A stretch of DNA of 64,000 nt from Janibacter terrae NBRC 107853 (GTDB taxonomy: Bacteria > Actinomycetota > Actinomycetes > Actinomycetales > Dermatophilaceae): assembly GCF_001591405.1 (NCBI RefSeq), contig NZ_BCUV01000007.1, positions 248,001-312,000 on the forward strand. The letters are read 5' to 3'. This document shows positions 18,740 to 39,374 of this stretch, piece after piece. Position 1 is the first letter of the stretch. Each line of letters begins with the position of its first letter. The notes beneath the pieces are model-generated. The model worked only from the letters and a program-made list of their open reading frames with translations. It ran no database searches and was not told the origin of the DNA. The position numbers and the translations under genes are program-made.

Positions 18740-18755
18740 TTGAATCGGGATTCAA
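18740..18755. promoter_or_regulatory. Operator copy 1 (TTGAA-N6-TTCAA), MFS promoter
   Basis: TTGAATCGGGATTCAA is a perfect 7-2-7 inverted repeat about 40 bases before the MFS start and next to the minus-strand sequence TATACC. The same palindrome occurs in the promoters at 31610, 34728/34750 and 39346. Confidence 0.7.
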
Positions 18756-18792
18756 GTTCGAGTCAAGGGTCGCCTCGACTGCTCGGTGACGG

Positions 18793-20469
18793 TCAGGCGA
18801 GGGCGGCGACGAGGTCCTGCGCGCGACCCAGCAGCTCGGGCTTGCGGATCTTGCCCGTGTCGGTGAGCGGGAAGGCCTCGACGACCTCGACGAGCGGCAG
18901 CTTGTACGTCGCCATCTGGTCGCGAGCCCACTCCTCCACCCCGGTCGCGGTGACGGAGGACCCGGGGACCAGGCTGACGAAGGCCACGGGCCGCTGCCCG
19001 GTGGACGCGTCGTCCGCCGGCACCACGGCGACGGAGGCGACGTCGGGGTGGCCGGCGAGCAGCATCTCGACCTCGGCCGGGAAGACGCTCATGCCGTTGA
19101 CCTTGATCATGTCCTTGCTGCGCGCGAGGTAGTGCAGGCACCCGTCGTCGTCGAGGTAGCCGGTGTCGCCCGTGTGCAGCCAGCCGTCCCGCAGCTGCTG
19201 CGCCGACGCCTGCGGGTTGCGCCAGTATCCGGTCATGATCGAGGGGCTGCGCAGGAGGATCTCCCCCGCCTCTCCGAGGGGCATCGGCTCCGCCGTCGCG
19301 GGGTCGACGACGACGACGTCCGTGCCCGGCACGGGCAGCCCGCAGAACACCGGCTCGGTGAGCAGGTCGTGGTCGCCCTCGTGGAACCCGTACGGCACGA
19401 CGTCGACGGTGTGGCTCTCCGTCATGCCGTAGGAGCCCTCGCGCAGGACCGAGCCGGGTCCGACGACCTCGGACCACTGCCGGCGCACCTCCGGGGTGAG
19501 CTTGCGGATGAAGGACATCGTCATCGGCGCGGTGAAGCAGGACAGGTCGCGCTCGGCGACGCCGGGCACCCGCAGCAGGTCGAGGTAGCTCTCCACGGTG
19601 GCCGCGGTCGTCGTCACGCGGCACCTCTCGACGAGGTCCACGACGGTGGCGGCGTCCCAGCGCTCCAGCAGCACGGTGGTCCCGCCCGTGACGAGGGGGA
19701 TGAGGATGCCCAGGTCCTCCCCCGCGATCCAGAAGACGGGGATGAAGCACAGCGAGACGACCCGTGTCCCGTCGAAGCCGTTGGCCCCCGAGGCACTCAC
19801 GGCCGTGTAGACCATGTGCCGCTGGGTGTGCTCGCACCCCTTGGGCAGACCGGTCGTGCCGCCGGTGTAGTTGAGCGCCGCGAGGGCGTCGAGGTCCCCG
19901 GCCACCTCGCGCAGCGGCGCCGTCGCCTCGGTGTCGCTCCAGCGCACGACCTCGAGCCCCTCGACGGCGGGAAGGGGGTCCCCGCCGGTGGCGAGGACGA
20001 CCACCGTGTGCACGTCGGTCGCGGCGGCGGCCGCGCAGAGCCGCTCCGCGAGTGCGGCGCTCGTGACGACCACGCTCGCCCCGGAGTCGCGCAGCTCGTG
20101 GACGAGCTCGGCGTGCTGGAACATCGGGTTCACCGGTACGTGCACGCACCCGGCCCGCAGCGTGCCGAGGAAGGCGATGACGAACTCGGGGACATTGCCC
20201 AGGTGGACGCCGACCCGCTCGCCGGGGGCCACCCCCTTCGCCCGCAACCAGCCGGCCCAGCGCGCGTGCCGGTCGGCGAGCTCGCGGTAGTCCATGACGA
20301 CCTCGTCGTGGACGATCGCGGCCTCTTCCGGCTGCCGCTGCGCCCACGCGTCGACGTACCCGGGGACCGTGAGGTCACCGAGCGGGTGGACGACGTCGCG
20401 GGGGGTGCCGGCGGGACGGACCCGCTCCTGACGCTGCCGCAGGTCCTGCAGGTGCTGCGTGTAGTCCAT
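18793..20469 (-). CDS. Acyl-CoA synthetase / AMP-dependent ligase
   Basis: A 558-residue ANL-superfamily adenylating enzyme that activates a carboxylic acid to its CoA thioester. Motifs in order are the P-loop NYTGGTTGLPKG, SYGMTES, DGWLHTGDTGYLDDDG and, at the C-terminus, TDTGKIRKPEL with the catalytic Lys. The N-terminal 25 residues are charged. The ATG at 20469 follows GAAGGAG. It is the last gene of the long operon from 31.5 kb, 15 bases after the carboxylase. Chain length and type of substrate are unknown; a second synthetase lies at 28444-29970. Confidence 0.88.
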   Translation of the reverse strand: MDYTQHLQDLRQRQERVRPAGTPRDVVHPLGDLTVPGYVDAWAQRQPEEAAIVHDEVVMDYRELADRHARWAGWLRAKGVAPGERVGVHLGNVPEFVIAFLGTLRAGCVHVPVNPMFQHAELVHELRDSGASVVVTSAALAERLCAAAAATDVHTVVVLATGGDPLPAVEGLEVVRWSDTEATAPLREVAGDLDALAALNYTGGTTGLPKGCEHTQRHMVYTAVSASGANGFDGTRVVSLCFIPVFWIAGEDLGILIPLVTGGTTVLLERWDAATVVDLVERCRVTTTAATVESYLDLLRVPGVAERDLSCFTAPMTMSFIRKLTPEVRRQWSEVVGPGSVLREGSYGMTESHTVDVVPYGFHEGDHDLLTEPVFCGLPVPGTDVVVVDPATAEPMPLGEAGEILLRSPSIMTGYWRNPQASAQQLRDGWLHTGDTGYLDDDGCLHYLARSKDMIKVNGMSVFPAEVEMLLAGHPDVASVAVVPADDASTGQRPVAFVSLVPGSSVTATGVEEWARDQMATYKLPLVEVVEAFPLTDTGKIRKPELLGRAQDLVAALA

Positions 20470-20484
20470 GGGGGCTCCTTCGGG

Positions 20485-23400
20485 TCACCAGGTGTCGACG
20501 TAGCGGGTCGGCCGCTCGTCGGGGACGACGGACGCCATCGCCGTGCGGATCCACCGGCGGGTGTCGACCGGGTCGATGACGTCGTCGAGCTCGACGACCG
20601 CCGCAGAGTTGACCGCGCGGCCGCGTTCGTAGAGGTCGTCGACAAGCCGCTGCTCCAGCGCCCGGCGCTCCGTGGGGTCCGCGACCGCCTCGAGCTCGCG
20701 GCGGAAGCCCAGACGGACCGCACCCTCGAGGCCCATGCCGCCGACCTCACCCGTCGGCCACGCCAGCGTCGCCGCCGGGCGGTGGAAGCTGCCCGCGGCC
20801 ATCGCCTGCGCGCCCAGGCCGTAGGCCTTGCGCAGGACGACCGTCACCATCGGCACCCGCAGGTGCGACCCGATGACGAAGAGGCGGGCGAAGTGGCGCA
20901 CCGTCGCGGTGCGCTCGTGCTCCGGCCCGACCATGAACCCCGGGGTGTCGCAGAGGGAGACGACGGGCAGCCCGTGCGCGTCGCAGAGCTGGAGGAAGCG
21001 CGCGAGCTTGTCCGCGGCCGGGGTGTCGATCGCCCCGCCGAGGTGGCGCGGGTTGTTGGCGACCAGCCCCATGGGACGACCCTCGATGCGCACGAGCGCG
21101 GTGACGACGCCGGGGGCGAAGCCGGCGCGCAGCTCGAGGACCGAGCCCTCGTCGGCGAGGGTGCGGATCGCGGCGTGGATGTCGTAGGCGCGCACCCTGT
21201 TCTCCGGGACGACGTGGCGCAGCGCCCGCTGGTCGGCGGCGGTCCACTCCTCGCGCGCCCCCTGGAAGTAGCCGAGGTAGCGCTGGGCCACCTCGACCGC
21301 CTCCGCCTCGTCGTCGACGACCACGTCGACGACGCCGTTGCCGCCCTGCACCTCGATGGGGCCGACCTCCTCGGGCGCGAAGACGCCCAGGCCACCCCCT
21401 TCGATCATCGCGGGACCGCCCATGCCGATCGTCGAGTCACGCGTGGCGATGATGACGTCGCAGCAGCCGAGGAGCGCGGCATTGCCGGCGAAGCAGCGAC
21501 CGGCCGCGATGCCGATGGTCGGGACGAGCCCGCTGAGCCGGCCCATCGTCGCGAAGGTCGGCACGTCGAGACCGCTGGCGACCGTGGTGTCGGTGTCCCC
21601 GGGACGGCCCCCGCCCCCTTCGGCGAAGAGGACGACGGGCAGGCGCTGCTGCTCGGCGATCTCGAGGAGGCGGTCGGTCTTCTTGTGGTTGAGGTAGCCC
21701 TGGGTGCCAGCCAGCACGGTGTAGTCGTAGGCCAGGACCGCGCAGCGGGAGTCTCCGGCGGGGGTGCTGCCGATGCGACCGATCCCCGTGACGATCCCGT
21801 CGGCCGGGGTGCTCGCGATGAGGTCCTCCTCGCTGCGCCGCGCGCGCTGGGCCGCGACGGCGAGACCGCCGTACTCGATGAAGCTGCCCTCCTCGACGAG
21901 GTCGGCGATGTTCTCCCGGGCCGTGCGTCGGCCGCGCGCATGGCGCTTGGCGACCGCCTCGGGGCGAGCCGCGTCCAGGCGCCGGTCGCGGCGCTCGAGC
22001 AGCCTCGACAGGTCGGCCCGCTCGGCGTCGAGGTCGGGTCCCTCGTCGAGCGCGCCGGTCGACGACTGGTCGGAGGAAGGGAGCAGCCGCACCAGGAGGT
22101 CACCGGCCGCGGTCGTCGCACCGGCCCGGACCCGGACGGCGGTGACCGTCCCGGTGGCGGGGGCGGGCACCAGGTGCTCCATCTTCATCGCCTCGACGAC
22201 GACGAGGGGCGTCCCGACGGCGACCTCCTGGCCGGGCTCGACGAGGACGGCGACGACGGTGCCGGCCATCTCCGCGAGGACCTCGCCGTCGCTCACGTCC
22301 GGGCGGTCGAGAGCACGGATCGGGCCGGTCTCGTCGAACCACCGGGTCGTGACGTCCCACGCGGCGACGTCCTCGTGGTCGAGGACCTCGCGCAGGAGCG
22401 GCAGGTTGGTCTCGACCCCGTCGACGGTGCACTCCGCGACCGCCTGTCGCGCCTTGCCGAGCGCCGCGGCCAGGCCGCTGTGGCTGTGGGTGACGACCTT
22501 CGCGACGAGCGAGTCGAAGGAGCCGTCGACGCGGGTCCCCTCGACGAGGTGCGTGTCCACCCGCACCCCGGGCCCGGTCGGCAGGGCGAGTCGGGAGACG
22601 ACGCCGTGGGCGGGCAGCGCCTCGCCGTGGCTGCCGGTGCGCTCTGCGGCGACCCGCAGCTCGACGGCGGCGCCGGTGACCGCCGGTGGGGTCGCCAGGC
22701 CGAGGTCGGCGAGGCCCTCCCCCGCAGCCAGCCGCAGCTGGGCGAGCACGAGGTCGACGCCCGTGACCATCTCGGTCACCGGGTGCTCGACCTGCAGACG
22801 CGGGTTGACCTCGATGAACCACCAGCGGCTCGGGTCGTCGGCGTCGAGCAGGAACTCGACCGTGGCCAGCCCGCGGTAGCCGCGGCCGGAGACCAGCCGC
22901 ACGGCGGCGGCGTGCAGGTCCGCCCGGACGTCGTCGGGCAGCGCCGGTGCGGGCGCGACCTCGACGACCTTCTGGAAGCGGCGTTGCAGGGTGCAGTCCC
23001 GCTCGCCGAGGTGGGTGGCTCCCCCTTCGCCGTCGGCCACGACCTGGACCTCGACGTGCCGGGCCCGCTCGACGTACAGCTCGACGAAGAGCTCGCCGGA
23101 GCCGAAGCTGCGCTCCGCCTCGGAGCGCGCGCGCTCCCAGGCCTCGCCGAGGGGCTCGCCGGCCGGCACCGCCCGCATGCCGCGGCCGCCGCCGCCCGCC
23201 GCCGCCTTGACCATGACGCCTGCGGGACGCTGCGCCAGGGCGAAGGCCTCCGCCTGCGCCTCGGTGACGCCGACGGGGGTGGCGGGCAGGACCGGGACCC
23301 CGGCCTGCTCCGCCACCGCCCGGGCGCTGCCCTTGTCCCCGAAGAGCTCGAGCAGCTCGGCGTCCGGCCCGACGAAGACCACGCCGGCCTCGACGCACGC

Positions 23401-23670
23401 CCGTGCGAGCGCCGGACTCTCGCTGAGGAAGCCGTACCCCGGGTGCAGCATCGTGCACCCGTGCTCGATCGCCCCGGCGACGAGGGAGGACGCATCGAGG
23501 TAGGCGGCCGCACCCTCCCCCGGCAGCACGTGGACCGCCGTCGCGAGCCGGGCGGCCAGCGAGTCGGCCTCCGCCCGGGTCACGGCCGCCACGACGTCCA
23601 GACCGGCCTCCCTGGCGGCTCGGACGATCCGGACGGCGATCTCGCCACGGTTGGCGACGAAGACGGGCAC
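20485..23670 (-). CDS. Single-chain biotin-dependent acyl-CoA carboxylase (BC-BCCP-CT)
   Basis: A 1061-residue protein that carries a whole acyl-CoA carboxylase on one chain. Biotin carboxylase occupies about residues 1-450 (ANRGEIAVRI at 6, HPGYGFLSE at 76, GGGGRGM at 159, EVNPRLQVEHPVTE). A BCCP domain has the biotin-accepting lysine at 496 (EAMKMEH), and a carboxyltransferase with both beta- and alpha-like halves fills about 555-1061. This resembles the long-chain acyl-CoA carboxylase type known from mycobacteria, although there an extra BT domain precedes BCCP. The GTG at 23670 follows GAGGAG. Its place between a thiolase and an acyl-CoA synthetase points to catabolism. Confidence 0.9.
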   Translation of the reverse strand: MPVFVANRGEIAVRIVRAAREAGLDVVAAVTRAEADSLAARLATAVHVLPGEGAAAYLDASSLVAGAIEHGCTMLHPGYGFLSESPALARACVEAGVVFVGPDAELLELFGDKGSARAVAEQAGVPVLPATPVGVTEAQAEAFALAQRPAGVMVKAAAGGGGRGMRAVPAGEPLGEAWERARSEAERSFGSGELFVELYVERARHVEVQVVADGEGGATHLGERDCTLQRRFQKVVEVAPAPALPDDVRADLHAAAVRLVSGRGYRGLATVEFLLDADDPSRWWFIEVNPRLQVEHPVTEMVTGVDLVLAQLRLAAGEGLADLGLATPPAVTGAAVELRVAAERTGSHGEALPAHGVVSRLALPTGPGVRVDTHLVEGTRVDGSFDSLVAKVVTHSHSGLAAALGKARQAVAECTVDGVETNLPLLREVLDHEDVAAWDVTTRWFDETGPIRALDRPDVSDGEVLAEMAGTVVAVLVEPGQEVAVGTPLVVVEAMKMEHLVPAPATGTVTAVRVRAGATTAAGDLLVRLLPSSDQSSTGALDEGPDLDAERADLSRLLERRDRRLDAARPEAVAKRHARGRRTARENIADLVEEGSFIEYGGLAVAAQRARRSEEDLIASTPADGIVTGIGRIGSTPAGDSRCAVLAYDYTVLAGTQGYLNHKKTDRLLEIAEQQRLPVVLFAEGGGGRPGDTDTTVASGLDVPTFATMGRLSGLVPTIGIAAGRCFAGNAALLGCCDVIIATRDSTIGMGGPAMIEGGGLGVFAPEEVGPIEVQGGNGVVDVVVDDEAEAVEVAQRYLGYFQGAREEWTAADQRALRHVVPENRVRAYDIHAAIRTLADEGSVLELRAGFAPGVVTALVRIEGRPMGLVANNPRHLGGAIDTPAADKLARFLQLCDAHGLPVVSLCDTPGFMVGPEHERTATVRHFARLFVIGSHLRVPMVTVVLRKAYGLGAQAMAAGSFHRPAATLAWPTGEVGGMGLEGAVRLGFRRELEAVADPTERRALEQRLVDDLYERGRAVNSAAVVELDDVIDPVDTRRWIRTAMASVVPDERPTRYVDTW

Positions 23671-23717
23671 GGCTGCTCCTCGGGGACGTGACGGGGTGGG
23701 GCGAAGGGGTGCGCGGG

Positions 23718-24914
23718 TCAGAAGATCTCGAAGAGCCCCGCCGCGCCCATGCCGCCACCGACGCACATCGTCACGACGCCGTAGCGCGCGCCTCGGCGCC
23801 GGCCCTCGATGAGGAGGTGACCGGCCATGCGCGCACCGCTCATGCCGTACGGGTGGCCGATCGAGATGGCCCCGCCGTTGACGTTGTACTTCGCCGGGTC
23901 GATGCCGAGCGTGTCGCGGCAGTAGAGCGCCTGGACGGCGAAGGCCTCGTTGAGCTCCCACAGGTCGATGTCGTCCACCGTGAGCCCGTGCTGGGCGAGC
24001 AGCTTCGGCACGGCGAAGACCGGGCCGATGCCCATCTCGTCCGGCTCGCAGCCCGCGACGGCCATGCCGCGGAAGGCGCCGAGCGGGGTCAGCCCGCGGC
24101 GGGAGGCCTCGGCGGCCTCCATGACGACTGCCGCGGACGCGCCGTCGGACAGCTGCGAGGCATTGCCCGCGGTGATCGAGAAGCCCTCGGTGCCGTCCTT
24201 GGCGAGCACCGGGTTCAGCTTGGCCAGGTCCTCGATGGTCGTGCTGGGGCGGTTGCCCTCGTCCTTGGCGAGCGTGACCTCCTGCGAGGAGACCTCACCC
24301 GTCGCCTTGTCCTTGCTGAGCATCGTCGAGGGCAGCGCCACGATCTCGTCGTCGAAGGCGCCGGCCTCCTGGCCGGCTGCCGTGCGTCGCTGGGACTCGA
24401 GGGCGTACTCGTCCTGGGCATCCCGGCCGACGCCGTAGCGCTGCGCGACGATCTCGGCGGTCTCGAGCATGGACATGTAGGTCGCCGGCACGTGCTCGAC
24501 GAGCCAGGGGTCCTGCGCGCGGTAGGTGTTCATGTGCTCGTTCTGCACCAGCGAGATCGAGTCGACCCCGCCACCGACGGCCACGTCCATGCCGTCGAGG
24601 ACGACCTGCTTGGCGGCGGTGGCGATGGCCATGAGCCCGCTCGCGCACTGGCGGTCGACGGACATGCCGGCGACCGTGACGGGCAGGCCGGCGCGCAGCG
24701 CCGCCTGCCGGCCGATGTTCATCGCGGTCGAGCCCTGTTGGAGGGCGGCGCCGATGACGACGTCCTCGATCCGCTCGCCCTCGACGCCGGAGCGCTCGAC
24801 GGCATGGCGCACGGCGTGGCCGATGAGCTCCTGGGCCTGGGTGTCGTTGAAGGCGCCGCGGTAGGCGCGGCCGATCGGGGTGCGGGCGGTGGAGACGATG
24901 ACTGCTTCGCGCAT
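23718..24914 (-). CDS. Acetyl-CoA C-acyltransferase (thiolase)
   Basis: A 398-residue thiolase for the last step of beta-oxidation, cleaving 3-oxoacyl-CoA to acetyl-CoA and a shortened acyl-CoA. The nucleophile Cys90 lies in [10 protein letters not shown]. The C-terminal motifs [18 protein letters not shown] (catalytic His) and [13 protein letters not shown] (second Cys) are intact. I prefer the ATG at 24914, eight bases after AGGAG, to the GTG three codons upstream. It lies between an acyl-CoA dehydrogenase and the carboxylase in the same operon. Just upstream are two tandem copies of GTCGAAGGGGGT. Confidence 0.93.
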
Positions 24915-24971
24915 GGGGGTCACTCCTGTGGGTGAGGGGAGGTCGAAGGGGGTGGGTCGAAGGGGGTTCGG

Positions 24972-26051
24972 TCAGCTCGCCGGGAGGTCCACGAGCTCGG
25001 CCAGATCGCTGCGGTGCCGGTCCGGGGTGCCGAGGGCCAGCTGGTCGGACTTGGCCCGCTTGAGCCGGGTGTGCACCGACGCCTCCCACGTCATGCCGAT
25101 GCCGCCGTGCAGCTGCAGGGCCTCCTCGGCCGCCCGCACCGCGGCGTCCGAGCAGTACGACTGGGCCACGGCCTGCGAGACCAGCTGGTCGGGGTCGCCG
25201 TCCGCGAGCGTGCCGGCGGCGTAGCGGGCGGCGGCCCGGGTGCCGACGAGTTCCAGGTAGAGGTCGGCGAGGCGGTGCTTGATCGCCTGGAAGGAGCCGA
25301 TCGGTCGGGCGAACTGCACCCGCGTCTTCGCGTACTCCACCGTCGTGTCGAGGCACCACTGCGCCACGCCCAGCTGCTCGGAGGCGAGCAGCGCGGCGCC
25401 GGCGGCGAGCGCGGCGTCGACGGCCTCGTCGGCGGCGGTCCCGGAGGCGATCTCGTTCCCCTGACCGGTCACGCTCACGCTGGCGAGCGGGCGGGTCATG
25501 TCGAGCGACGTGATGGGCTCCAGCTCGACCTCGTCGCGATCGAGAGCACGAAGGGAGGTCACGCCCCCCTCGCCCCGGGTCGGCACGAGGAAGAGGTCGG
25601 CACCGAGCGCACCGGCGACCGGTGCGACCGGCCCCGCGCTCGGGTCGACGGCCGTCCACGCCCCACGGCGCGCGGTCCACGGCAGCACGAGCGCCGCGGT
25701 GCGCTCCCCCGAGGCGAGGGTCGGCAGACGGGTCTCGTCGCCGGCCTCGAGGAGGGCGGTCGTCGCGATGACGGCACTGGTGAGGAAGGGGACGGGCGCG
25801 ACGGCCCCGCCGAGCTCCTCGAGGACCACGGCCGCCTCTCGGGCGCTGGCTCCCGCGCCGCCGAGCGACTCGGGGACGAGCAGGCCGGCGAGGCCGAGCT
25901 GCTCGGCCAGCGAGCGCCACAGGCCGGACACGTCGGTGTCGGGTTCGTCGGCGAGATGGGTGGGCAGCGTCTCGTCCAGCGCGCGGCGCAGGGTCGAGCG
26001 GACGCTGTCCCGCAGCGCCTCCTCGACGTCGGTGTAGAGCAGGTCGGTCAT
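24972..26051 (-). CDS. Acyl-CoA dehydrogenase, partner subunit lacking the catalytic Glu
   Basis: A 359-residue acyl-CoA dehydrogenase-fold protein. The C-terminus has ALQLHGGIGMTWEASVHTRLKRAKS, the signature of the non-catalytic or flavin-contributing partner in actinobacterial heteromeric dehydrogenases. I see no EGGT-type catalytic Glu loop. Its ATG overlaps the stop of the next upstream dehydrogenase as ATGA, so the two are made together, like the FadE pairs of mycobacterial steroid side-chain degradation. It probably forms a heterotetramer with the 26048-27217 product. Confidence 0.85.
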   Translation of the reverse strand: MTDLLYTDVEEALRDSVRSTLRRALDETLPTHLADEPDTDVSGLWRSLAEQLGLAGLLVPESLGGAGASAREAAVVLEELGGAVAPVPFLTSAVIATTALLEAGDETRLPTLASGERTAALVLPWTARRGAWTAVDPSAGPVAPVAGALGADLFLVPTRGEGGVTSLRALDRDEVELEPITSLDMTRPLASVSVTGQGNEIASGTAADEAVDAALAAGAALLASEQLGVAQWCLDTTVEYAKTRVQFARPIGSFQAIKHRLADLYLELVGTRAAARYAAGTLADGDPDQLVSQAVAQSYCSDAAVRAAEEALQLHGGIGMTWEASVHTRLKRAKSDQLALGTPDRHRSDLAELVDLPAS

Positions 26052-27217
26052 CGCGGCACATCCTTGAAGGCGATCCCCTTGTCGGGGCGGTGGTCCGGTG
26101 GCAGGCCGAGCACGCGCTCGGCGATGACATTGCGCATGATCTCGCTCGTGCCGCCCTCGATCGAGTTGCCCTTGGCGCGCAGATAGCGGAAGCCGGGGCC
26201 GTGACCGAGGAAGGAGCCGCCCTCGGGGCGGACCATCGTCCAGTCGTGGTACTCGAGCCCCTCCTCGGGGGCGACCTCGAGGGCGAACCCGCTCACCTGC
26301 TGCGCCTGGTGGGCGAAGGCGAGCTTCATCGCCGAGCTCTCTGGGCCGGGCTGACCGACCTCCAGGCCCTGCCGCAGGCGCTCCCCGGCGAGGCGGGTGA
26401 CCTCGGTCTCGACCCACCACTGCATGAGCTCGGTGTGGTGGCCGGGGGTGCGCACCGACGGGTCGGTGCGCCACCGCTGGGTGACGACGCCGATCTGGCC
26501 GGCCTCGCGCTCGTTGCCGGCGGAGATCGCCACGCGCTCGTTGTTCAGCGTCGTCGTCGCGACCTTCCAGCCGGCACCCACGGCGCCGACCCGGTGGGTG
26601 TCGGGCACCCGCACCCCGGTGAGGAAGACCTCGTTGAACTCCGCCTCGCCGGTGAGCTGGCGCAGCGGCCGCACCTCGATCCCGGGGTCGGACATGTCCA
26701 CGACGAAGTAGGTCATCCCCGCGTGCTTGGGGACCGTCGGGTCGGTGCGGGCCACGAGGATCGCGAACTGGGCGTTGTGCGCCCCGGAGGTCCACACCTT
26801 CTGCCCGTCGACGACCCACTCGTCACCGTCGGGGACGGCACGGGTCGCGACACCCGCGAGGTCGGAGCCGGCACCGGGCTCGCTGAAGAGCTGGCACCAG
26901 ATCTCGGTGCACGTGAAGAGCGGGCGCAGGAATCGCTGCTGCAGCTCCTCCGTGCCGAAGGCCAGCAGCGTCGGAGCGGCCATGCCCAGGCCGATGCTGT
27001 TCTTCGCGAAGTCCGGACGGGGCGCGCCGGCCTCCTCGAGGAGGGCGTCGACCTCGAGCTGGCGTCCACGCGAGAGGCCGAGGCCTCCCTTCCCCTGCGG
27101 GAAGTGGACCCAGGCGAGGCCGGCGTCGAACTGGGCGCCGAGGAACTGCGCGGGGTCGCTCGTCTGCGGGTCGTGGCTCGCGAGGAGCTCCTCGACCCGC
27201 TGCTGCAGATCAGGCAT
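26048..27217 (-). CDS. Acyl-CoA dehydrogenase, catalytic subunit
   Basis: A 389-residue acyl-CoA dehydrogenase that introduces the alpha-beta double bond. FAD-binding blocks are [16 protein letters not shown] and [11 protein letters not shown], and the C-terminus has [24 protein letters not shown] with the catalytic Glu. It overlaps the following partner gene by four bases and the preceding dehydrogenase stop by eight, so all three are tightly coupled. It has the size and motifs of FadE alpha subunits that pair with a Glu-lacking partner. Confidence 0.9.
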
Positions 27218-31672: not shown

Positions 31673-32143
31673 ATGACGCAGACAGCCCAGCACCGCCCGA
31701 CCTCGGTCCAGGACCTCAAGGACCTCGTGGGGGTCGAGCTCGGCCCTACCGAGTGGCACGTCGTCGACCAGGCCAAGATCGACGGCTTCGCCGACCTCAC
31801 CGGCGACCACCAGTGGATCCACGTCGACCCTGCCAGGGCCGCGGACTCCCCCTTCGGCTCGACGATCGCGCACGGCCTCTACAGCCTCTCGCGCACGCCG
31901 GCCTTCCTCGAGGAGCTCATGGCCTTCGACGGGTTCGCCCACAGCCTGAACTACGGCTACGACAAGGTGCGCTTCATCCACCCGCTGCCGGTGGACTCGC
32001 GCATCCGCCTGCGCGCGATGCTGAGCTCGGTCGAGGAGACCGCCCCCGGCGCCGTCAAGGTCGTCACGACCCTCACGGTCGAGGCCGACGGGATCGACAA
32101 GCCGATCCTCGTCGCGGAGTCGATCGGCCGCTTCAGCTCCTGA
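31673..32143 (+). CDS. MaoC-family enoyl-CoA hydratase
   Basis: A 156-residue hot-dog hydratase with the hydratase-2 motif FADLTGDHQWIHVDPARA (catalytic Asp and His) followed by FGSTIAHGLYSLS. It is of the NodN/PhaJ type and adds water to trans-2-enoyl-CoA to give (R)-3-hydroxyacyl-CoA. GAAGGAG precedes the ATG at 31673. It is transcribed divergently from the SDR operon under a shared operator and ends at a hairpin facing the convergent thioesterase. Confidence 0.9.
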   Translation: MTQTAQHRPTSVQDLKDLVGVELGPTEWHVVDQAKIDGFADLTGDHQWIHVDPARAADSPFGSTIAHGLYSLSRTPAFLEELMAFDGFAHSLNYGYDKVRFIHPLPVDSRIRLRAMLSSVEETAPGAVKVVTTLTVEADGIDKPILVAESIGRFSS

Positions 32144-32156
32144 CCCAGCCGGACGA

Positions 32157-32189
32157 GAGAACCGCATCCGCCTGGCGGATGCGGTTCTC
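32157..32189. terminator. Bidirectional terminator
   Basis: A perfect 14-bp stem, GAGAACCGCATCCG/CGGATGCGGTTCTC, with a CCTGG loop lies between the convergent MaoC hydratase and thioesterase genes. Confidence 0.85.
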
Positions 32190-32207
32190 CTGTCGGCGGG
32201 CTCGGGT

Positions 32208-32714
32208 TCAGCGACGCACGCCGATCGTGCCCGACAGGGGCAGCTGCCAGGGCAGGGCCCGATGGGCGGCGATCTCCGCATCGATGCGCCGGGCCAGGTC
32301 CGCCGGGAAGGGGGTGGCCCGGCGGGTCACGAGGTCGACGTGCCCCTCGAGCACCTCGAGCGTGTTGGCGATCCGCCCGGTGGTGTGGTTGACGACGACC
32401 GAGATCCCGTGGAAGACCTTGTCGCCCCTGTCGAGCCAGCGCACGTGCGCGGAGATCTCCTCGCCGATGTGCACCTCGTGCAGGAAGCGCAGGTGCTGCT
32501 CCATGCTGAACACGCCGAGCCGACGACCGGAGCGGTAGGCGTCGTCGACGCCGATGCGCAGCAGCGACTCGTGCGCCGCGCGGATGTGGAAGCCGTAGAA
32601 GTGGGCCACGTTGACGTGGCCGTTGCCGTCCTCCCACTCCGGCCCGGCGACGACGCGGCAGGCCTCGGGGATCCGCGCGACCTCGGCGACGGTGGGCAGC
32701 TGGTCGACGGTCAC
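32208..32714 (-). CDS. Acyl-CoA thioesterase-like hot-dog protein
   Basis: A 168-residue single-domain hot-dog protein of the thioesterase group. The segment WEDGNGHVNVAHFYGFHIRA corresponds to the active-site helix region of 4HBT enzymes, and FHGISVVVNHTTGRIANTLEVLEGHVDL forms the later strands. Start is the GTG at 32714, which overlaps the stop of the upstream quinone reductase as GTGA. It may release a CoA-bound product or recover CoA. Substrate is unknown. Confidence 0.75.
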   Translation of the reverse strand: MTVDQLPTVAEVARIPEACRVVAGPEWEDGNGHVNVAHFYGFHIRAAHESLLRIGVDDAYRSGRRLGVFSMEQHLRFLHEVHIGEEISAHVRWLDRGDKVFHGISVVVNHTTGRIANTLEVLEGHVDLVTRRATPFPADLARRIDAEIAAHRALPWQLPLSGTIGVRR

Positions 32715-33664
32715 GGCACCAGGACCACCTTGCCGGTCACGGTGCGCCCCTCGAGGGAGGAGAGCGCGGTCGCGGCCTCCTCCAGCGGGTGGACCGCACC
32801 GACGACGGGGCGCAGGGCACCGCTGCGCAGGTGCGGGAGCATGGCGTCCCACTCCCGGCGCACGTGGCCCGGGCGCGACATCGCGTAGGCACCCCACCCG
32901 ACGCCGACGACCGAGACGTTGTTGAGGAGCAGCCGGTTGACCTTGACCTCGGGGATCCCACCGGCCGTGAAGCCGATGACGAGGAGCCGCCCGTGCTCGC
33001 GCAGGGCGCGCAGGGAGTCGGTGAAGCGGTCCCCGCCGACGGGGTCGACGACGATGTCGACGCTCCCCTTGCCGACCGCCGCGAGGAACCCGTCGGCCGG
33101 GACGACCTCGTCCGCACCGGCGGCCCGGGCGATCTCCCCCTTCGCCTCGGTGGAGACGACCCCGATGACCCGCCCGGCACCGAAGGCCTTGGCCATCTGG
33201 ATGGCCGCGGTGCCGATGCCTCCGGCGGCGCCGTGGACGAGGACGGTCTCGCCCTCGGTCAGGCCACCGCGCTCGAGGAGCGCGAAGTAGACCGTCGCGT
33301 AGTTGAAGGTGAAGGACGCGGCCTCCTCGAAGGTGACCTCGTCGGGCAGGGCGAAGGTCAGGTCCGGGCGGGCCACGGCCTGCTCGGCGAAGCCACCCAG
33401 CAGGGTGAGCGCGGCGACGCGGTCACCGGCGGACAACCCGCTGCCCTCAGGGGCGGCGACGACGACGCCGGCGACCTCGGCGCCCGGGACGAAGGGGAGG
33501 TCCGGCTTGACCTGGTACAGGCCCCGGGTCTGGAGCAGCTCGGGGAAGGCGACCCCGGCCGCCTTGACGTCGATCGTCACGAGCCGCGGGTCACCGGGCT
33601 CCGGAAGGTCGACGAGCTCGACCGCCTCGGGGCCGTCGAGCGAGGAGATGTGGACTGCGCGCAT
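32711..33664 (-). CDS. NADPH:quinone reductase-like MDR oxidoreductase
   Basis: A 317-residue zinc-free medium-chain dehydrogenase/reductase. The GroES-like part includes AAGVAFPELLQTRGLYQ and VPGAEVAGVV. The Rossmann part has VLVHGAAGGIGTAAIQMAKAFGA. No zinc-binding Cys cluster is present, which fits quinone or enoyl reductases. It follows another MDR gene by 12 bases and is coupled to the thioesterase. It probably reduces an enoyl-CoA or enone intermediate in the island. Confidence 0.85.
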   Translation of the reverse strand: MRAVHISSLDGPEAVELVDLPEPGDPRLVTIDVKAAGVAFPELLQTRGLYQVKPDLPFVPGAEVAGVVVAAPEGSGLSAGDRVAALTLLGGFAEQAVARPDLTFALPDEVTFEEAASFTFNYATVYFALLERGGLTEGETVLVHGAAGGIGTAAIQMAKAFGAGRVIGVVSTEAKGEIARAAGADEVVPADGFLAAVGKGSVDIVVDPVGGDRFTDSLRALREHGRLLVIGFTAGGIPEVKVNRLLLNNVSVVGVGWGAYAMSRPGHVRREWDAMLPHLRSGALRPVVGAVHPLEEAATALSSLEGRTVTGKVVLVP

Positions 33665-33676
33665 GTGGGAGACCTT

Positions 33677-34678
33677 TCAGACCTGGAGGAGGAGCTTGCC
33701 GGTGTTGACCCCGTCGAAGAGGCCGAGCAGGGCGTCGGGGAAGGCGGCGACGCCGCCCTCGAGGACGGTCTCGGTCGCGACGAGACGGCCGTCGCGGATG
33801 AGCTCGCCGATGCCTGCGATGGCCTCGCCGTAGCGGTCGGCGTAGTCCATGACGACGAAGCCCTGCATGCTCGCGCGGAAGACCAGCAGCGCCATGTAGC
33901 GCCGCGGCCCCTCCGCGAGGGTCTCGTCGTTGTAGGTCGAGATGGCCCCGCAGACGACGACGCGGGCACCGTGCGCCAGGTTGGCCAAGGCGGCGTCGAG
34001 CAGCTCCCCGCCGACGTTGTCGAAGTAGACGTCCACGCCGTCGGGTGCGGCCCGGCGCACCTGGCGCAGCAGGTCCCCCTCGCGGCGGTCGATGACCTCG
34101 TCGAGCCCGAGCTCGCGCAGCCAGGCGACCTTGTCCGGGCCCCCGGCGACGCCGATGACCCGGCACCCCTTGGCCTTGGCGAGCTGGGCGACGGTGCTGC
34201 CGACGGCACCGGCCGCAGCCGACACGAGGACGGTGTCGCCGGGCTGCGCCCGTCCGATGTCCTCCAGGCCGAACCACGCGGTCATGCCCGGCATGCCGAG
34301 CGCGCCCAGCCAGGTGCTCATCGGGGCGAGGTCCAGGTCGAGGCGGGCGACCCCCTTCCCGCTGGAGATCGCGTACTCGCGCACCCCGAAGGTGCCGCTC
34401 ACGACGTCACCGACGGCGAAGTCCTCGTGCTGCGAGGCGACGACCGTGCCGGCACCGAAGGCCCGCATGACGGCGCCGATCTGCACCGGAGGCAGGTACG
34501 AGCGCACGTCGTTGAGCCAGCCGCGCATCGCGGGGTCGAGCGAGATCTGCTGCAGCTCGACGAGGAACTCCCCCGGACCGGGGTCGGGGACGTCGGTCGT
34601 GGCCAGCTCCCAGGTGCTCGCGTCGGGGCGGCCGTGCGGGCGGGCGGCGAGGCGGATCTCCTGCGAGGTCCGGGACAT
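33677..34678 (-). CDS. NADP-dependent oxidoreductase, CurA/leukotriene-B4-dehydrogenase-like
   Basis: A 333-residue MDR protein of the YncB/CurA/prostaglandin-reductase branch. Markers are LDPAMRGWLNDVRSY, GMPGMTAWFGLEDIG, VLVSAAAGAVGSTVAQLAKAKG and YFDNVGGELLDAAL. Relatives reduce the double bond of alpha,beta-unsaturated ketones or aldehydes with NADPH. The ATG at 34678 has AGGAG upstream; the longer open frame is discarded. It is the first gene of a three-gene operon divergent from the RhlG-like SDR, with two operator copies between them. Confidence 0.86.
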   Translation of the reverse strand: MSRTSQEIRLAARPHGRPDASTWELATTDVPDPGPGEFLVELQQISLDPAMRGWLNDVRSYLPPVQIGAVMRAFGAGTVVASQHEDFAVGDVVSGTFGVREYAISSGKGVARLDLDLAPMSTWLGALGMPGMTAWFGLEDIGRAQPGDTVLVSAAAGAVGSTVAQLAKAKGCRVIGVAGGPDKVAWLRELGLDEVIDRREGDLLRQVRRAAPDGVDVYFDNVGGELLDAALANLAHGARVVVCGAISTYNDETLAEGPRRYMALLVFRASMQGFVVMDYADRYGEAIAGIGELIRDGRLVATETVLEGGVAAFPDALLGLFDGVNTGKLLLQV

Positions 34679-34727
34679 GGGTGGCTCCTGGGTCGGGTCG
34701 ACGGTGACACGGCCACCCTGCCACAAC

Positions 34728-34743
34728 ATGAATCTGCGTTCAA
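34728..34743. promoter_or_regulatory. Operator copy 3, MDR operon promoter
   Basis: ATGAATCTGCGTTCAA matches TTGAA-N6-TTCAA in nine of ten arm positions (read on the other strand, TTGAACGCAGATTCAT). It overlaps the probable minus-strand -10 region (CATGTT). Confidence 0.55.
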
Positions 34744-34749
34744 CTACTC

Positions 34750-34778
34750 TTGAACCACGATTCAAGTGCGACTACGGT
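34750..34778. promoter_or_regulatory. SDR promoter with operator copy 4
   Basis: -35 TTGAAC (34750-34755), a 17-base spacer and -10 TACGGT (34773-34778) drive the RhlG-like SDR. The operator TTGAACCACGATTCAA covers 34750-34765, so it overlaps the -35 exactly as at 31610. Confidence 0.7.
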
Positions 34779-34808
34779 CGAGCCACCACCCCCGAGCGAA
34801 GGACCACC

Positions 34809-35594
34809 ATGGACATCCCCTCCCTCTTCTCCCTCGAGGGCCGCGTCGCCCTCGTGACCGGCGGCTCCCGCGGCATCGGCCGGATGATCACCGAGGGCCT
34901 GCTCAGCCAGGGCGCGACGGTCTACATCACCGCCCGCAAGGCGGAGGCCTGCCTGGCCACGGCCGCAGAGCTGTCGCAGGAGCACGGCGAGGGTCGCTGC
35001 ACGGCGCTGCCCGGTGACGTGTCGACGACCGCCGGCATCGCCGACCTGCTCGCCGCCCTGGCCGAGCACGAGGACCACCTCGACGTGCTCGTCAACAACG
35101 CCGGCGCGGCGTGGGCCGAGCCCTTCGACAGCTTCCCCGAGAGCGGCTGGGACAAGGTCATGGACCTCAACGTCAAGGCGCCCTTCTTCCTCACCCAGGC
35201 GGCCAAGGGCCTGCTGCTCGCCGGCCGTGAGCGCAGCGGCCACCTGGCCAAGGTCATCAACATCGCCTCCATCGACGGGCTCTCCCTCAACCCGCTCGAG
35301 ACGTACTCGTACCACGCGAGCAAGGCGGGGGTCGTCCACCTCACGAAGCGGATGGCCGTCACGCTCGCGCCCGAGGGCATCGTCGTCAGCGCGATCGCGC
35401 CGGGCGCCTTCGCCTCGAGCATGAACAAGGAGGCGCGCGACCACGGGGACGAGATCTCCGGCCAGATCCCCTCCGGTCGCATCGGGCGTCCCGAGGACAT
35501 GGCCGCCGCCGCGATCTACCTGGCCTCGGACGCCGGCGACTACGTCGTCGGCAGCACGCTGACCGTCGACGGCGGGGTCAACATCGCCCGCTGA
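34809..35594 (+). CDS. Short-chain dehydrogenase, RhlG-like
   Basis: A 261-residue SDR that resembles RhlG-type ketoreductases: [77 protein letters not shown] (catalytic Ser, Tyr and Lys) and [12 protein letters not shown] at the end. It reduces or oxidises a 3-oxo/3-hydroxyacyl group. AAGGA precedes the ATG at 34809. Monocistronic, operator-controlled, and ended by a hairpin shared with the convergent tetR gene. Confidence 0.88.
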
Positions 35595-35607
35595 GCCGCG
35601 CCACGTG

Positions 35608-35640
35608 ACGAAGGGAGGGGCCGCTGGCCCCTCCCTTCGT
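35608..35640. terminator. Bidirectional terminator
   Basis: A perfect 15-bp stem, ACGAAGGGAGGGGCC/GGCCCCTCCCTTCGT, with a GCT loop lies between the convergent SDR and tetR genes. Both arms contain CGAAGGG/CCCTTCG. Confidence 0.9.
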
Positions 35641-35657
35641 GCGCCGGCGAGGAGACC

Positions 35658-36338
35658 TCAGTCCGCGCGCAGCTCGGGCGTCGTGAGCCCGAGCGCGTTG
35701 GTCCACAGACGCGTGGCACCCTCGACGAGCTCCTCGACGGGGACGAGGAGGAAGTCGTTGACGAAGGCGTCCTGGGCCAGGCGCGAGACCATGCCCGAGA
35801 GCGCCATGGCCGCGGTCATCGCGTCGATCCCGCGGTCCGCGAGCCCGCGGGACTGCAGGTCGGCGATGGCCTTGCCGTTGCGGACGACGAACGCCTGGGC
35901 CCTGGCCTGGCGCAGCCGCCGGAACCGCGGGTCGACCGCGGCGACCTGGAGGAGCAGCTGGTTGAGCCGCGCGTTGCGCCGGTAGGCCTCGAAGTAGGCG
36001 CGGTTGCTCGCGGCGATGATCGCGACCGGGTCGTCGGTCGCCTCCATCCGGTGGGTCCCGGGGTGCAGCATCTCGCTCTGCGCCTGGTGCAGGACCGCCG
36101 CGAAGACCTCGTCCTTGCTGTCGAACCACGTGTAGAAGCTGCCGATCGAGCACTTCGCCTCGGCGGCGATGTCGACCAGGCGGGAGTCGACGAAGCCGTC
36201 GCGCTCGAAGACGGTGCGGGCAGCGGCGATGAGCGCGTCCCGGGTGCGCTGGCCGCGCGCGGTCTGCGGCTGGGTGCCGAGCTTGGCGGCGTCGACGAGG
36301 TCGGGCACCTCGCTCGTGGTCTCGCTGTCGCTGGGCAT
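35658..36338 (-). CDS. TetR-family transcriptional regulator, likely local regulator
   Basis: A 226-residue TetR-type repressor. The helix-turn-helix lies at about residues 55-75 (LVDIAAEAKCSIGSFYTWF) after the usual RTRDALIAAARTVFERDGF. The C-terminal ligand domain is all-helical, with LNQLLLQVAAVDPRF. The ATG at 36338 is seven bases after TAGCAT, so it has a leaderless promoter inside the end of the kinase gene and is also downstream in the HAD-ACAD-APH operon. It is the only transcription factor in the 17-42 kb island, hence the best candidate to bind the TTGAA-N6-TTCAA sites. That link is inference. Confidence 0.88.
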   Translation of the reverse strand: MPSDSETTSEVPDLVDAAKLGTQPQTARGQRTRDALIAAARTVFERDGFVDSRLVDIAAEAKCSIGSFYTWFDSKDEVFAAVLHQAQSEMLHPGTHRMEATDDPVAIIAASNRAYFEAYRRNARLNQLLLQVAAVDPRFRRLRQARAQAFVVRNGKAIADLQSRGLADRGIDAMTAAMALSGMVSRLAQDAFVNDFLLVPVEELVEGATRLWTNALGLTTPELRAD

Positions 36339-36345
36339 GGCCGCC

Positions 36346-36351
36346 ATGCTA
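36346..36351 (-). promoter_or_regulatory. Leaderless -10 element for tetR
   Basis: TAGCAT on the minus strand overlaps the stop codon of the kinase gene and ends seven bases before the tetR ATG. It would give a second, internal source of the regulator. Confidence 0.5.
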
Positions 36352-37365
36352 AACCGCTTCGTCCAGCACCACGTGCGCAGCGGACACGAGCTGGTCGACG
36401 GCCTCTGCGGGGATCTCGCCCATGGCGGTGAGGTTGCGCGGGTCGTCCAGCTGCCGGCGCCGGACGCCCTCGAGGATGATCGCGACCTTCCACAGCCCGA
36501 GCCCGTGCCAGAAGGGCACGGCCGAGACATCCCGCCCGGAGACCTGCGCGTAGTGCGCCACGAGCTCCTCCCGGGTGGCGAAGCCGGGCACCGTCGAGGC
36601 GTCGAAGCGCATCGTCGGGGGGTCGCCCGCCTGGGGCCAGTAGGCCAGCACGGTCCCGAGGTCGGCGAGCGGGTCGCCGAGGGTGGCGAGCTCCCAGTCG
36701 AGGATCGCCCGGACGTGCGCGTCCCGGGGGTCGACGATGACATTGCGCAGGTGGCTGTCGCCGTGGACGAGCACGACCTCCGCCGGGGCGGGCTCGCGCT
36801 CGTGGAGCCGGCTGGTGAGCCGGTCCAGCTCGGGCAGGTCCCGGGTCCGGGACAGCTCCCACTGCCCCGCCCACCGCTTGAGCTGCCGGGCCGCGTAGGG
36901 CTTGTGGCTCGCGAGGTCGGCGAGCCCCACCCGGTCCAGGTCGACCGCGTGGATGCGGGCCAGGGTCTCGACGAGAGAGAGGCCGACCGCGTGCCGGGCC
37001 GCCGGTGACAGGCCCTCCGCGTCGCTGCGTTCGTCGAGGACGAGCCCGTCGACGAAGGAGACGACGAGGACCGGCCGGTCGGCGACCGCCGGGTCCTCGC
37101 ACAGCCCGTGCACGACGGGAAGGGGGACGTCGGTCCCCTGGAGCGCGGAGAGGATCCGGTGCTCCCGGGCGACGTCGTGGGCCGAGGCCAGCAGCTCGCC
37201 CATCGGGGGGCGCCGCAGGACCAGGCGCTCCCCCTTCGCGTCCGTGACGAGGTAGGTGAGGTTGGACTGCCCCAGGCCCACGCGCTCGTGGACCAGCGGC
37301 GGCTCGACGTCCACCCGCTCGGCGATCCACGCCGCCATCGCGGCCGTGTCGATCCCCTCGATCAC
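36349..37365 (-). CDS. APH/ACAD10-11-type acyl-CoA hydroxyl kinase
   Basis: A 338-residue aminoglycoside-phosphotransferase-fold kinase. The catalytic loop HGDSHLRN is at residues 201-208 and the metal-binding DWE at 223-225, after an N-lobe with LVLRRPP. This branch is the one fused to acyl-CoA dehydrogenases in ACAD10 and ACAD11, and is related to LvaA of Pseudomonas putida, which phosphorylates 4-hydroxyacyl-CoA. The GTG at 37365 overlaps the dehydrogenase stop as GTGA, so kinase and dehydrogenase are co-translated. I infer phosphorylation of a hydroxyacyl-CoA rather than drug resistance. Confidence 0.82.
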
Positions 37366-38585
37366 TGGGACTTGCCCCACTGCGGGCTGCGGCGGCGGTA
37401 CTCGCGGCGCGCGATGGTCATCTTGTGCACCTCGTCGGGGCCGTCGGCCAGACGCAGGGTGCGCATGTGCGCGTACCACATGGCCAGCGGGAAGTCGTCG
37501 CTCACGCCGCCGCCTCCGTGCACCTGGATGGCCCGGTCGATGACCTTGAGCGCGACCGTCGGGGCGGCGACCTTGATGGCCGCGATCTCCGTGCGGGCGA
37601 CCTTGTTGCCGACGGTGTCCATGAGGTGCGCGGCCTTGAGGGTGAGCAGGCGCGCCATCTCGATCTCGATGCGGGACTCGGCGACCCAGTCCATGATGTT
37701 GGAGCGGTTGGCGACGGGCTCCCCGAAGGTCACCCGGGACTGTGCGCGGTCGATCATCAGGTCGAGGGCACGCTCCGCGACGCCGATGGCGCGCATGCAG
37801 TGGTGGATCCGGCCGGGACCCAGTCGGGCCTGGCTGATCATGAAGCCGTCGCCCTCGCCGGCGAGCAGCGCCTCGCGCGGGACCCGCACGTCGGTGAAGG
37901 TCACCTCGGCGTGGCCCTCGCGGTCCATGTACCCGAAGACCGGCAGCCCGCGCTCGATGGTCACACCGGGGGCGTCGATCGGCACGACCATCATCGACTG
38001 CTGGCGGTGCGTCGGGGCGTCCGGGTCGGTCTTGCCCATGACGATCATGACCTTGCAATTCTTGTGCAGCGCGTTGGAGGTCCACCACTTGCGGCCGTTG
38101 ATGACGTACTCGTCACCGTCGCGCTCCATGCGCGTCTCGACGTTGGTCGCGTCCGAGCTGGCGACCGCCGGCTCGGTCATGGCGAACGCGGAGGCCATCT
38201 CGCCCGCGAGCAGCGGCTTGAGGTACTTCTCCTTGTGCTCGTCGGTGCCGAAGAGCGTGAGCACCTCCATGTTGCCGGTGTCCGGGGCGTTGCAGTTGAT
38301 CGCCTCGGGGGCGATCTCGATGCTGCGCCCGGTGATCTCGGCGAGGTGCGCGTACTCGAGGTTGGTCAGGCCGGGGCCCCACTCCGGGTGGGGGTGGAAG
38401 AGGTTCCACAGGCCCTGGCTGCGTGCCTCCGCCTTGAGGTCCTCGAGGACCTGCGGGTGGTGGTTGGCGTCGCCGGAGGCGCGCATCTGCTCGCGGTAGA
38501 CGCTCTCCGCCGGGTAGACGTGCTCGTCCATGAAGGTGAGGAGTCGTTCGCGGTAGTCCTGTCCGCGTTCACTGAGTTCGAACAT
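37362..38585 (-). CDS. Acyl-CoA dehydrogenase, ACAD10/11-like, paired with kinase
   Basis: A 407-residue acyl-CoA dehydrogenase of the ACAD10/11 branch, paralogous to 27210-28427. Markers are [63 protein letters not shown] and [10 protein letters not shown]-like [10 protein letters not shown] near the end. AAGGA precedes the ATG at 38585. It lies between a HAD phosphatase and the APH kinase; together they have all the domains of mammalian ACAD10 as separate proteins. It may eliminate phosphate from 4-phospho-acyl-CoA, as proposed for LvaC and ACAD11. Confidence 0.87.
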
Positions 38586-38630
38586 CGTGGCCGTCCTTCG
38601 GGGTGCTGGGGGTCGGGGTTCGGGGACCGG

Positions 38631-39302
38631 TCAGCGGGTGCCGGTCGGGGCCGGGAGGCGGAGTGCCTCGCGGATGCGGGGCAGGGACTCGTCGGCGCTG
38701 CGGTGGAGGATGCCGCGGATGCCGAGGCGGGCGGCCCCGACGAGGTTGTGCTCGAGGTCGTCGACGAGCACGCAGTCCGCGGGCTCGACGCCCAGGCGCT
38801 CGCAGGCGATCCGGTAGATCTCGCGCGAGGGCTTGCGCACCCCGACCTGGCCGGAGACCACGGAGACGTCGAAGAGCTCCTCGAGGTCGACGCGGGCGTA
38901 GCAGTCGCGCCCCAGGGAGTTGGAGACGAGCGCGACCGGGACGCCCGCGGCACGCGCCTGGCGGACGAGGTCGATCATCGGCTCGTCGAGGTCGAGGTGC
39001 GCGGCGACGCGGGCGAGCAGACCGCGGGGCTCGATGCGGCCACCCGCCTCGAGCATCGCGGCGGCGAAGGCGTCCTCGAAGCCCTCGTCGTCGAGCCGTC
39101 CGACCTCGTGCTCGGCGAGGGCGGTGCGCGCCCCCTCGTGGGTGGCCAGCAGGCGCAGCGCGGCGTCGGGGGCCAGGCCGGCATCGGCGGCGAGCGCGCC
39201 GAAGGCCGGGCCGATCGGGGCGGTGAGCACCCCACCGAAGTCGATGAGCAGCGCCGTGGCGCGCGCCTCGGCGGCGGTCGGGCCGGGTGACGTCGTCGTC
39301 AT
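38631..39302 (-). CDS. HAD-family phosphatase, ACAD10/epoxide-hydrolase-N type
   Basis: A 223-residue haloacid dehalogenase-like protein. Motif I is LLIDFGGVLT with nucleophile Asp21, but the second Asp of the classical DxD is Gly, as in HAD domains of the ACAD10 group. Motif II is VSNSLG, motif III contains VRKPSREIY and motif IV VLVDDLEHN. GAGGAG lies seven bases before the ATG at 39302, preferred over the ATG five codons upstream. First gene of the HAD-ACAD-APH-tetR operon. Its promoter (TTGAAT, 17-base spacer, TATACC) contains operator copy 5. Confidence 0.85.
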   Translation of the reverse strand: MTTTSPGPTAAEARATALLIDFGGVLTAPIGPAFGALAADAGLAPDAALRLLATHEGARTALAEHEVGRLDDEGFEDAFAAAMLEAGGRIEPRGLLARVAAHLDLDEPMIDLVRQARAAGVPVALVSNSLGRDCYARVDLEELFDVSVVSGQVGVRKPSREIYRIACERLGVEPADCVLVDDLEHNLVGAARLGIRGILHRSADESLPRIREALRLPAPTGTR

Positions 39303-39340
39303 GTCAGCACTCCTCATGGCTCCTGCGGTGTCGTGACAGG

Positions 39341-39374
39341 TATAGTTGAACTTAGATTCAGATTCAAGTCAATG
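39341..39374. promoter_or_regulatory. Divergent promoter with operator copy 5
   Basis: TTGAACTTAGATTCAG (39346-39361) matches the TTGAA-N6-TTCAA operator with one mismatch. On the minus strand TTGAAT, a 17-base spacer and TATACC drive the HAD operon. On the plus strand the MFS-hydratase frame begins at or near 39372. Confidence 0.6.

Follow-up and report, generated by a model that had tools for sequence, protein, structure and literature searches.

A TetR-family regulator predicted to act through a 20-bp palindrome in an acyl-CoA gene island of Janibacter terrae

The window analysed here is a stretch of 64,000 nucleotides from Janibacter terrae NBRC 107853 (contig NZ_BCUV01000007.1, positions 248,001 to 312,000) that carries an island of acyl-CoA genes. 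Promoters of this island share the palindrome TTGAA-N6-TTCAA, and the island encodes a TetR-family regulator of 226 aa with an EthR-type C-terminal domain (35658–36338, minus strand; PF00440, PF21313), the proposed repressor. Judged from sequence, this TetR is probably (at about 0.8) an autoregulated, acyl-CoA-responsive repressor of 4-hydroxy-acid or lactone catabolism that acts through the palindrome. This reading draws on the sites, their conservation, their co-occurrence with TetR, their placement on promoters and the homologies of the encoded proteins, from which binding, repression, ligand and substrate are predicted.

The operator in the window and the genome

Perfect copies of TTGAA-N6-TTCAA begin at 18740, 31610 and 34750 of the window, where 100 shuffles gave a mean of 0.00, and copies with one mismatch begin at 34728 (ATGAATCTGCGTTCAA) and 39346 (TTGAACTTAGATTCAG). 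The five copies with at most one mismatch compare with 0.04 expected. An earlier, sequence-only reading of the window had reported five copies in four promoter regions; the positions are correct, but it did not state that only three are perfect and two carry a mismatch. The whole genome (3,576,202 bases) contains the motif four times exactly and 14 times at up to one mismatch. A 20.6-kb stretch of the island holds three of the four exact copies (binomial 8e-7) and five of the 14 near copies (binomial 1e-8), with uniform placement assumed in both cases. Random scatter over the genome, which that reading had named as a finding that would speak against it, is thus not seen, and the shuffles, the expectation and the genome-wide clustering together rule out a chance origin of the copies.

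The full operator is a 20-bp palindrome with the consensus ACYTGAAYCC-GGRTTCARGT, described by a 20-column matrix built on 51 sites with at most one mismatch. The five island sites score 28.2–33.6 and all belong to the 51 training sites. The 16-bp palindrome originally proposed is the core of this element, and the longer palindrome around it had been missed. That an operator exists is near certain.

The highest-scoring site (ACTTGAACCCGGCTTCAAGT, 31608–31627, matrix 33.6) has an exact core, lies between the divergent genes SDR2 (minus strand) and MaoC (plus strand), and is followed at +6 by the half-site TCAACT. Two operators lie between ADH2 and SDR3, an exact core on the SDR3 promoter (TCTTGAACCACGATTCAAGT, 34748–34767, matrix 30.8) and, 22 bp from it on the ADH2 side, a copy with one mismatch (ACATGAATCTGCGTTCAACT, 34726–34745, matrix 28.4). 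The promoter of the HAD-ACAD-APH-TetR operon carries a site with one mismatch (AGTTGAACTTAGATTCAGAT, 39344–39363, matrix 28.2), overlapped at a 6-bp offset by a second site (39350–39369, matrix 24.8) whose outer half doubles as the −35. The last operator, with an exact core, precedes an MFS gene (TGTTGAATCGGGATTCAAGT, 18738–18757, matrix 30.3). A degenerate copy 23 bp from it (AGGTGAAGGATGATTCAGGT, 18715–18734, 16-mer at 18717, two mismatches in the 16-mer, matrix 20.0) had been overlooked, leaving the original list of sites incomplete.

Full sites pair at a spacing of 22–23 bp. Half-sites are phased as well, with a third half-site at exactly +6 bp in 73 of 316 flanks, compared with 0–5 at each other offset from 1 to 21. 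Counted by site, it is present at 22/61 sites in Janibacter and 51/97 elsewhere, and at several promoters it is also the −35.

Matches outside the island were considered as extra targets and rejected. These are nine of the 14 near copies, eight of which reach a matrix score of at most 14.4 (3-kb loci). The ninth, which is the fourth exact copy in the genome (C3:58745), scores 8.5 and adjoins a copy of a dispersed hairpin; given both, it is probably part of the hairpin element rather than a target. This hairpin repeat (core GCATTSCCCTAGGGSAATGC) occurs in the window at 17289–17322 and 46196–46229, in both cases between convergent genes, and at 34 places in the genome at up to three mismatches, with none for the reversed control. 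It looks like a bidirectional terminator or a repetitive extragenic palindromic (REP)-like element.

Conservation and co-occurrence with TetR

A TetR orthologue is present in all 16 genomes of the genus, with 74–94% identity in the other 15 (J. melonis, G092, is grouped in a neighbouring genus). In 14 of these 16 genomes the exact 16-mer is present, at 30 sites in all; for 26 of the 30, TetR is on the same contig and no more than 20 kb away. An exact site in G004 (C34) is on a different contig from TetR. In the islands of ten relatives and the window the sites are at the same places. Promoters were compared in 18 of 29 fetched stretches, and genes that lie past the stretch ends or are unmatched near their start drop out of the counts. 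On this basis a site is found in 14/14 SDR2–MaoC regions (score at least 25.9), 18/18 ADH2–SDR3 regions (at least 18.6), 16/16 HAD promoters of the TetR operon (at least 28.2), which fits autoregulation, and 8/8 promoters of the MFS gene (at least 20.6). The pair at 34726 and 34748 is kept in most genomes compared. Conservation beside orthologous clusters, proposed as a check when the motif was noticed, thus holds in the genus and, as described below, beyond it. Separately, exact 16-mers away from the island in G008 (C20:113348) and G013 (C1:2132388) share one core, TTGAACACGCGTTCAA, read from either strand, and are perhaps the site of another regulator.

Of the 186 genomes of the family, 27 carry a match to TetR (E≤1e-25). 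The exact 16-mer is found in 17/27 TetR-positive and 23/159 TetR-negative genomes. When the 20-mer pattern is counted with up to two mismatches there are 119 sites in the TetR-positive and 101 in the TetR-negative genomes (4.4 vs. 0.64 per genome), a comparison that is no blind test because the pattern was picked with sites from the genus and from some other genera already in view, and because genomes of one family are related. Outside the genus, 11 genomes are TetR-positive, with a mean of 2.2 pattern sites each.

A collection of named genomes extends this to 80 TetR loci, 72 of them outside Janibacter. A site scoring at least 20 is present at 47/72 of these compared with 3/360 simulated loci. 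Where the TetR is at least 65% identical the site is found in 11/11 loci, and in 36/61 of the others. Of the 77 non-Janibacter sites, 65 are placed upstream of a mapped gene at a distance of up to 400 bp, and none falls within a gene. The relatives in Nocardia and Rhodococcus have operator variants of the ACTTGACGYC type. Differences in the TetR recognition helix do not cleanly track this change of operator, and no claim is made from them. One orthologue, at G090:C1:761975-762616 (L072), has a single in-frame TGA.

The TetR had been named as the only regulator inside the island and, more cautiously, as the regulator of the sites. Domain scans of the island open reading frames (ORFs) found no other regulator gene, and the co-occurrence of motif and TetR across the family supports the second proposal, so the predicted link between the two is strong. 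The longer ORF of the TetR gene matches PF00440 at 34.8 bits (cut-off 24) and PF21313 at 33.5 bits (cut-off 27). Its predicted structure is all-helical, with nine helices and a mean pLDDT of 86.7. The best structural match of the model is EthR (E 3.1e-6, TMq 0.73), which shares the C-terminal Pfam domain in addition to the fold. The structural matches also include FasR bound to C20-CoA and Thermus FadR bound to lauroyl-CoA, in line with an acyl-CoA as the predicted ligand. EthR, FasR and the FadR-type proteins have the fold in common with this TetR but only ~15–23% identity.

Promoter architecture and predicted regulation

Promoter hexamers and spacers were assigned by eye. The MaoC promoter consists of TTGAAC (31610–31615), a 17-bp spacer and TAGGTT (31633–31638), and faces the SDR2 promoter (TTGAAC 31631–31626, 17 bp, TATGTT 31608–31603). 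The face-to-face arrangement at 31603–31638 with one common operator is as originally described. The SDR3 promoter has TTGAAC (34750–34755), 17 bp and TACGGT (34773–34778), and the HAD promoter has TTGAAT (39367–39362), 17 bp and TATACC (39344–39339) with the 16-bp site within the spacer. No convincing −35/−10 pair was found by eye for ADH2 (34678, minus strand). The claim that the operator begins on the −35 at 31610 and 34750 with a 17-base spacer holds, but the −10 hexamers had been called good. A strict sigma-70 scan of 31400–39500 called no promoters, which indicates that the hexamers are weak.

Within the island the operator lies in the −35/−10 spacer (HAD, SDR2) or begins on the −35 (MaoC, SDR3). 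At promoters of a second kinase, described below, it lies by eye just downstream of a TANNNT hexamer, and apparently likewise at those of a LivK-like protein. Among the promoters examined by eye, none has an operator upstream of the −35, the position of an activator. This placement over promoters favours repression, and TetR is predicted to bind the palindrome and repress.

In the uninduced state a TetR dimer would occupy the 20-bp site, and the bound operator, whether in the spacer, on the −35 or just past the −10, would exclude RNA polymerase. A single occupied operator at 31608–31627 would close both facing promoters. A third half-site at +6 bp or a second full site at 22–23 bp would give room for additional dimers at some promoters. 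TetR is predicted to repress itself, as its gene closes the HAD-ACAD-APH-TetR operon, whose promoter carries the operator. The repressor would be released by an inducer, which is probably one of the acyl-CoAs of the pathway. The regulon would comprise 21 island ORFs together with the LivK-like binding protein and a second ACAD11-type kinase encoded elsewhere, and its most likely role would be the breakdown of a 4-hydroxy acid or lactone via phosphorylation, elimination and beta-oxidation.

The proposal that about 24 kb and more than 15 genes answer to one regulator agrees with this size, as control of all four regions would take in 21 ORFs over 24.9 kb (17345–42199). Beyond the island, the predicted regulon takes in further genes. 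The LivK-like and second-kinase loci were found in the J. terrae genome by pattern search, and orthologues were then sought by protein. The LivK-like binding protein is present in 10/16 genomes of the genus, and all 10 orthologues have an upstream site (score 20.0–27.0). At these promoters a likely −10 lies upstream of the third half-site, which is there more easily understood as part of the operator. The second APH-fold kinase, which closely resembles the kinase domain of ACAD11 (E 2.6e-50), is present in 9/16 genomes with a site in 8/9 (score 18.1–26.1). Relatives also carry a PTE-family (phosphotriesterase/lactonase-like) gene at the island end (L046:6123-7085), for which no match was found in the window. 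Its best upstream site scores 22–34 in 8/9 matched Janibacter genomes and 25.4 in G053, compared with 1 to 21 in Gordonia-type loci.

Function and alternative explanations

The TetR operon resembles a split ACAD10/ACAD11. It consists of a HAD hydrolase (38631–39302, minus strand; TIGR01509 at 59.1 bits with a cut-off of 29.4, TIGR02247 at 86.5 bits, under its cut-off of 125.4), an acyl-CoA dehydrogenase like the ACAD11 dehydrogenase domain (37362–38585, minus strand; 8v3u, E 8.7e-134), an APH-fold kinase like the ACAD11 kinase domain (36349–37350, minus strand, start estimated; 8v3v, E 1.9e-37) and TetR. In ACAD10 and ACAD11 the domains lie in one chain, whereas here they are three separate genes (36349–39302). 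PMC12440821 and PMC11342911 describe ACAD10 and ACAD11 as handling 4-hydroxyacyl-CoA through a phosphorylated intermediate, with the HAD-like domain of ACAD10 left unevaluated. By homology, the substrate here may be a 4-hydroxyacyl-CoA phosphorylated by the kinase.

A TetR regulon as described with a different substrate, such as a branched, cyclic or long-chain acid degraded via acyl-CoA intermediates, is a serious alternative, if the less probable one. The island is mostly generic in content (ligases, SDRs, thiolase, carboxylase), and the 4-hydroxy-acid substrate comes from homology. However, the genes found most often beside TetR in other genera are the ACAD11-type dehydrogenase and kinase, the dispersed targets include a second kinase of this type, the island of relatives also holds a PTE-family gene that carries an operator, and the characterised homologues work on 4-hydroxyacyl-CoA (PMC12440821).

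It is unlikely that the sites are the shared operator of another regulator encoded elsewhere, with TetR in some other role. In its favour, binding of the operator by TetR is a prediction, one Rhodococcus group has TetR loci without the motif, and 23/159 TetR-negative family genomes contain exact 16-mers. Against this, motif frequency tracks the presence of TetR in the family (4.4 vs. 0.64), and distant genera have sites at genes adjoining TetR. Still less credible is the idea that the repeats mainly serve as promoter elements, in the form of TTGAAC −35 hexamers set back to back, with no regulator site, since, although a half-site or third half-site is an exact −35 with a 17-bp spacer at several promoters, the conserved palindrome includes positions that a −35 does not need, lies downstream of a −10-like hexamer at the second-kinase and, by eye, LivK-like promoters, and has few counterparts in family genomes without TetR.

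Several points weigh against TetR as the repressor of 4-hydroxy-acid or lactone catabolism. Binding and repression are predicted from sequence. TetR-negative genomes still average 0.64 pattern matches, and the pattern behind that figure was chosen after the event. Sites scoring at least 20 are absent from 25/72 non-Janibacter TetR loci, including the Rhodococcus group, in which TetR lies beside a carboxylase homologue and none of the 11 loci examined has a site. G004 has no site at the second kinase and G012 none at the PTE gene. Most island enzymes are generic, and the carboxylase is no obvious part of a 4-hydroxy-acid route. As a separate observation, the same 11 Rhodococcus loci (L123, L125, L128, L129, L131, L132, L135, L137, L141, L143, L153) all have a GACGTATAAAGACTGAATGCC leader at the TetR start, just before position 10001.

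The sequence-only reading did not recognise the motif as a known FadR, KstR or KstR2 site. The KstR motif is not known to match the operator. For KstR2 the statement is borne out, as the 14-bp KstR2 operator AnCAAGnnCTTGnT (PMC3068626) differs from ACYTGAAYCC-GGRTTCARGT in sequence and length. The regulon of KstR2, a TetR repressor of actinobacterial cholesterol catabolism, is otherwise alike in having a palindromic operator between divergent acyl-CoA-type genes and a compact cluster that includes the regulator. The BkaR regulon (PMC3920632) is also similar, with an autoregulated TetR, an acyl-CoA cluster, two motifs in one intergenic region and few outside targets, but its core GTTA(N)T(N4)A(N)TAAC and its enzymes differ. 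KstR2 and BkaR were thus rejected as owners of the motif, as the consensus fits neither published operator. If the prediction holds, the TetR belongs with the autoregulated TetR repressors that have a compact regulon with some scattered targets.

In Pseudomonas, the regulator of the 4-hydroxy-acid operon is LvaR, a protein with a sigma-54 interaction domain (PMC10164729), whereas the regulator found here is a TetR. The lva operon reportedly has no homologue of the HAD-like domain of ACAD10, whereas here a HAD gene sits in the operon. Binding of operators by a dimer of dimers is known for CprB and QacR (PMC4150764). Their long operators are read by more than one dimer, while the 6-bp repetition of half-sites here is known from DNA sequence, and about half or more of the sites lack a third half-site. 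In the open-licence PMC literature searched, no paper was found with the motif strings and, among the papers listed, no description of a TetR with these neighbours; relative to that literature the ACTTGA-type operator is not described.

It is quite possible, as a tentative extension, that a widespread actinobacterial TetR family is a dedicated 4-hydroxy-acid or lactone repressor. Its members come from Janibacter, Dietzia, Gordonia, Aeromicrobium, Nocardioides, Microtetraspora, a Mycobacterium metagenome-assembled genome, and parts of Rhodococcus and Nocardia. Its operator would consist of 6-bp-phased ACTTGA half-sites with one to three dimers stacked on the promoter, and it would control an ACAD10-like unit split over three genes. 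The HAD protein of this unit may account for the HAD-like domain found in ACAD10. The prediction supplies a regulator-operator pair for a catabolic gene set common to many actinobacteria, and joins bacterial counterparts of ACAD10/ACAD11 (kinase, dehydrogenase and here also a HAD protein) in one regulatory unit. The substrate, inducer and role of the HAD protein become directly testable, and the TetR-operator pair could serve as a sensor of hydroxy acids or lactones.

Other genes of the island

Genes were called from Pfam and NCBIfam scans of the island ORFs, and the starts of the carboxylase, one acyl-CoA dehydrogenase, the thioesterase and the kinase genes are estimates. A nine-gene operon on the minus strand (18793–31564, gaps of −22 to +48 bp) encodes SDR2, SDR1, FACL2, three acyl-CoA dehydrogenases, a thiolase, a single-chain acyl-CoA carboxylase and FACL1. 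The operator at 18740 had been listed among those in main promoters of the island. It stands as an operator but, lying between a ligase and the MFS transporter gene (17345–18700, minus strand; PF07690), it serves the latter, and the nine-gene operon is served from 31610. The carboxylase (20485–23709, ~1074 aa) combines biotin carboxylase, biotinyl and carboxyltransferase domains.

The MaoC-type dehydratase (31673–32143, plus strand; PF01575) is followed by ADH2, ADH1 and a 4HBT thioesterase (32208–34678, minus strand) and by SDR3 (34809–35594, plus strand), the latter four assigned by domain scans. Beyond the HAD promoter, domain scans identify an MFS/enoyl-CoA hydratase ORF and a DLH-family hydrolase (39372–42199, plus strand). 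The MFS and enoyl-CoA hydratase parts form one open frame at 39372–41564, while matched relatives have separate frames or an intervening stop. A conserved fusion is ruled out, as the parts are not in one frame in these relatives, and in this genome the two are either truly fused or joined by an error in the sequence. Just beyond the island, a minus-strand ORF at 44163–44960 encodes sigma-70 region 2 and region 4 domains.

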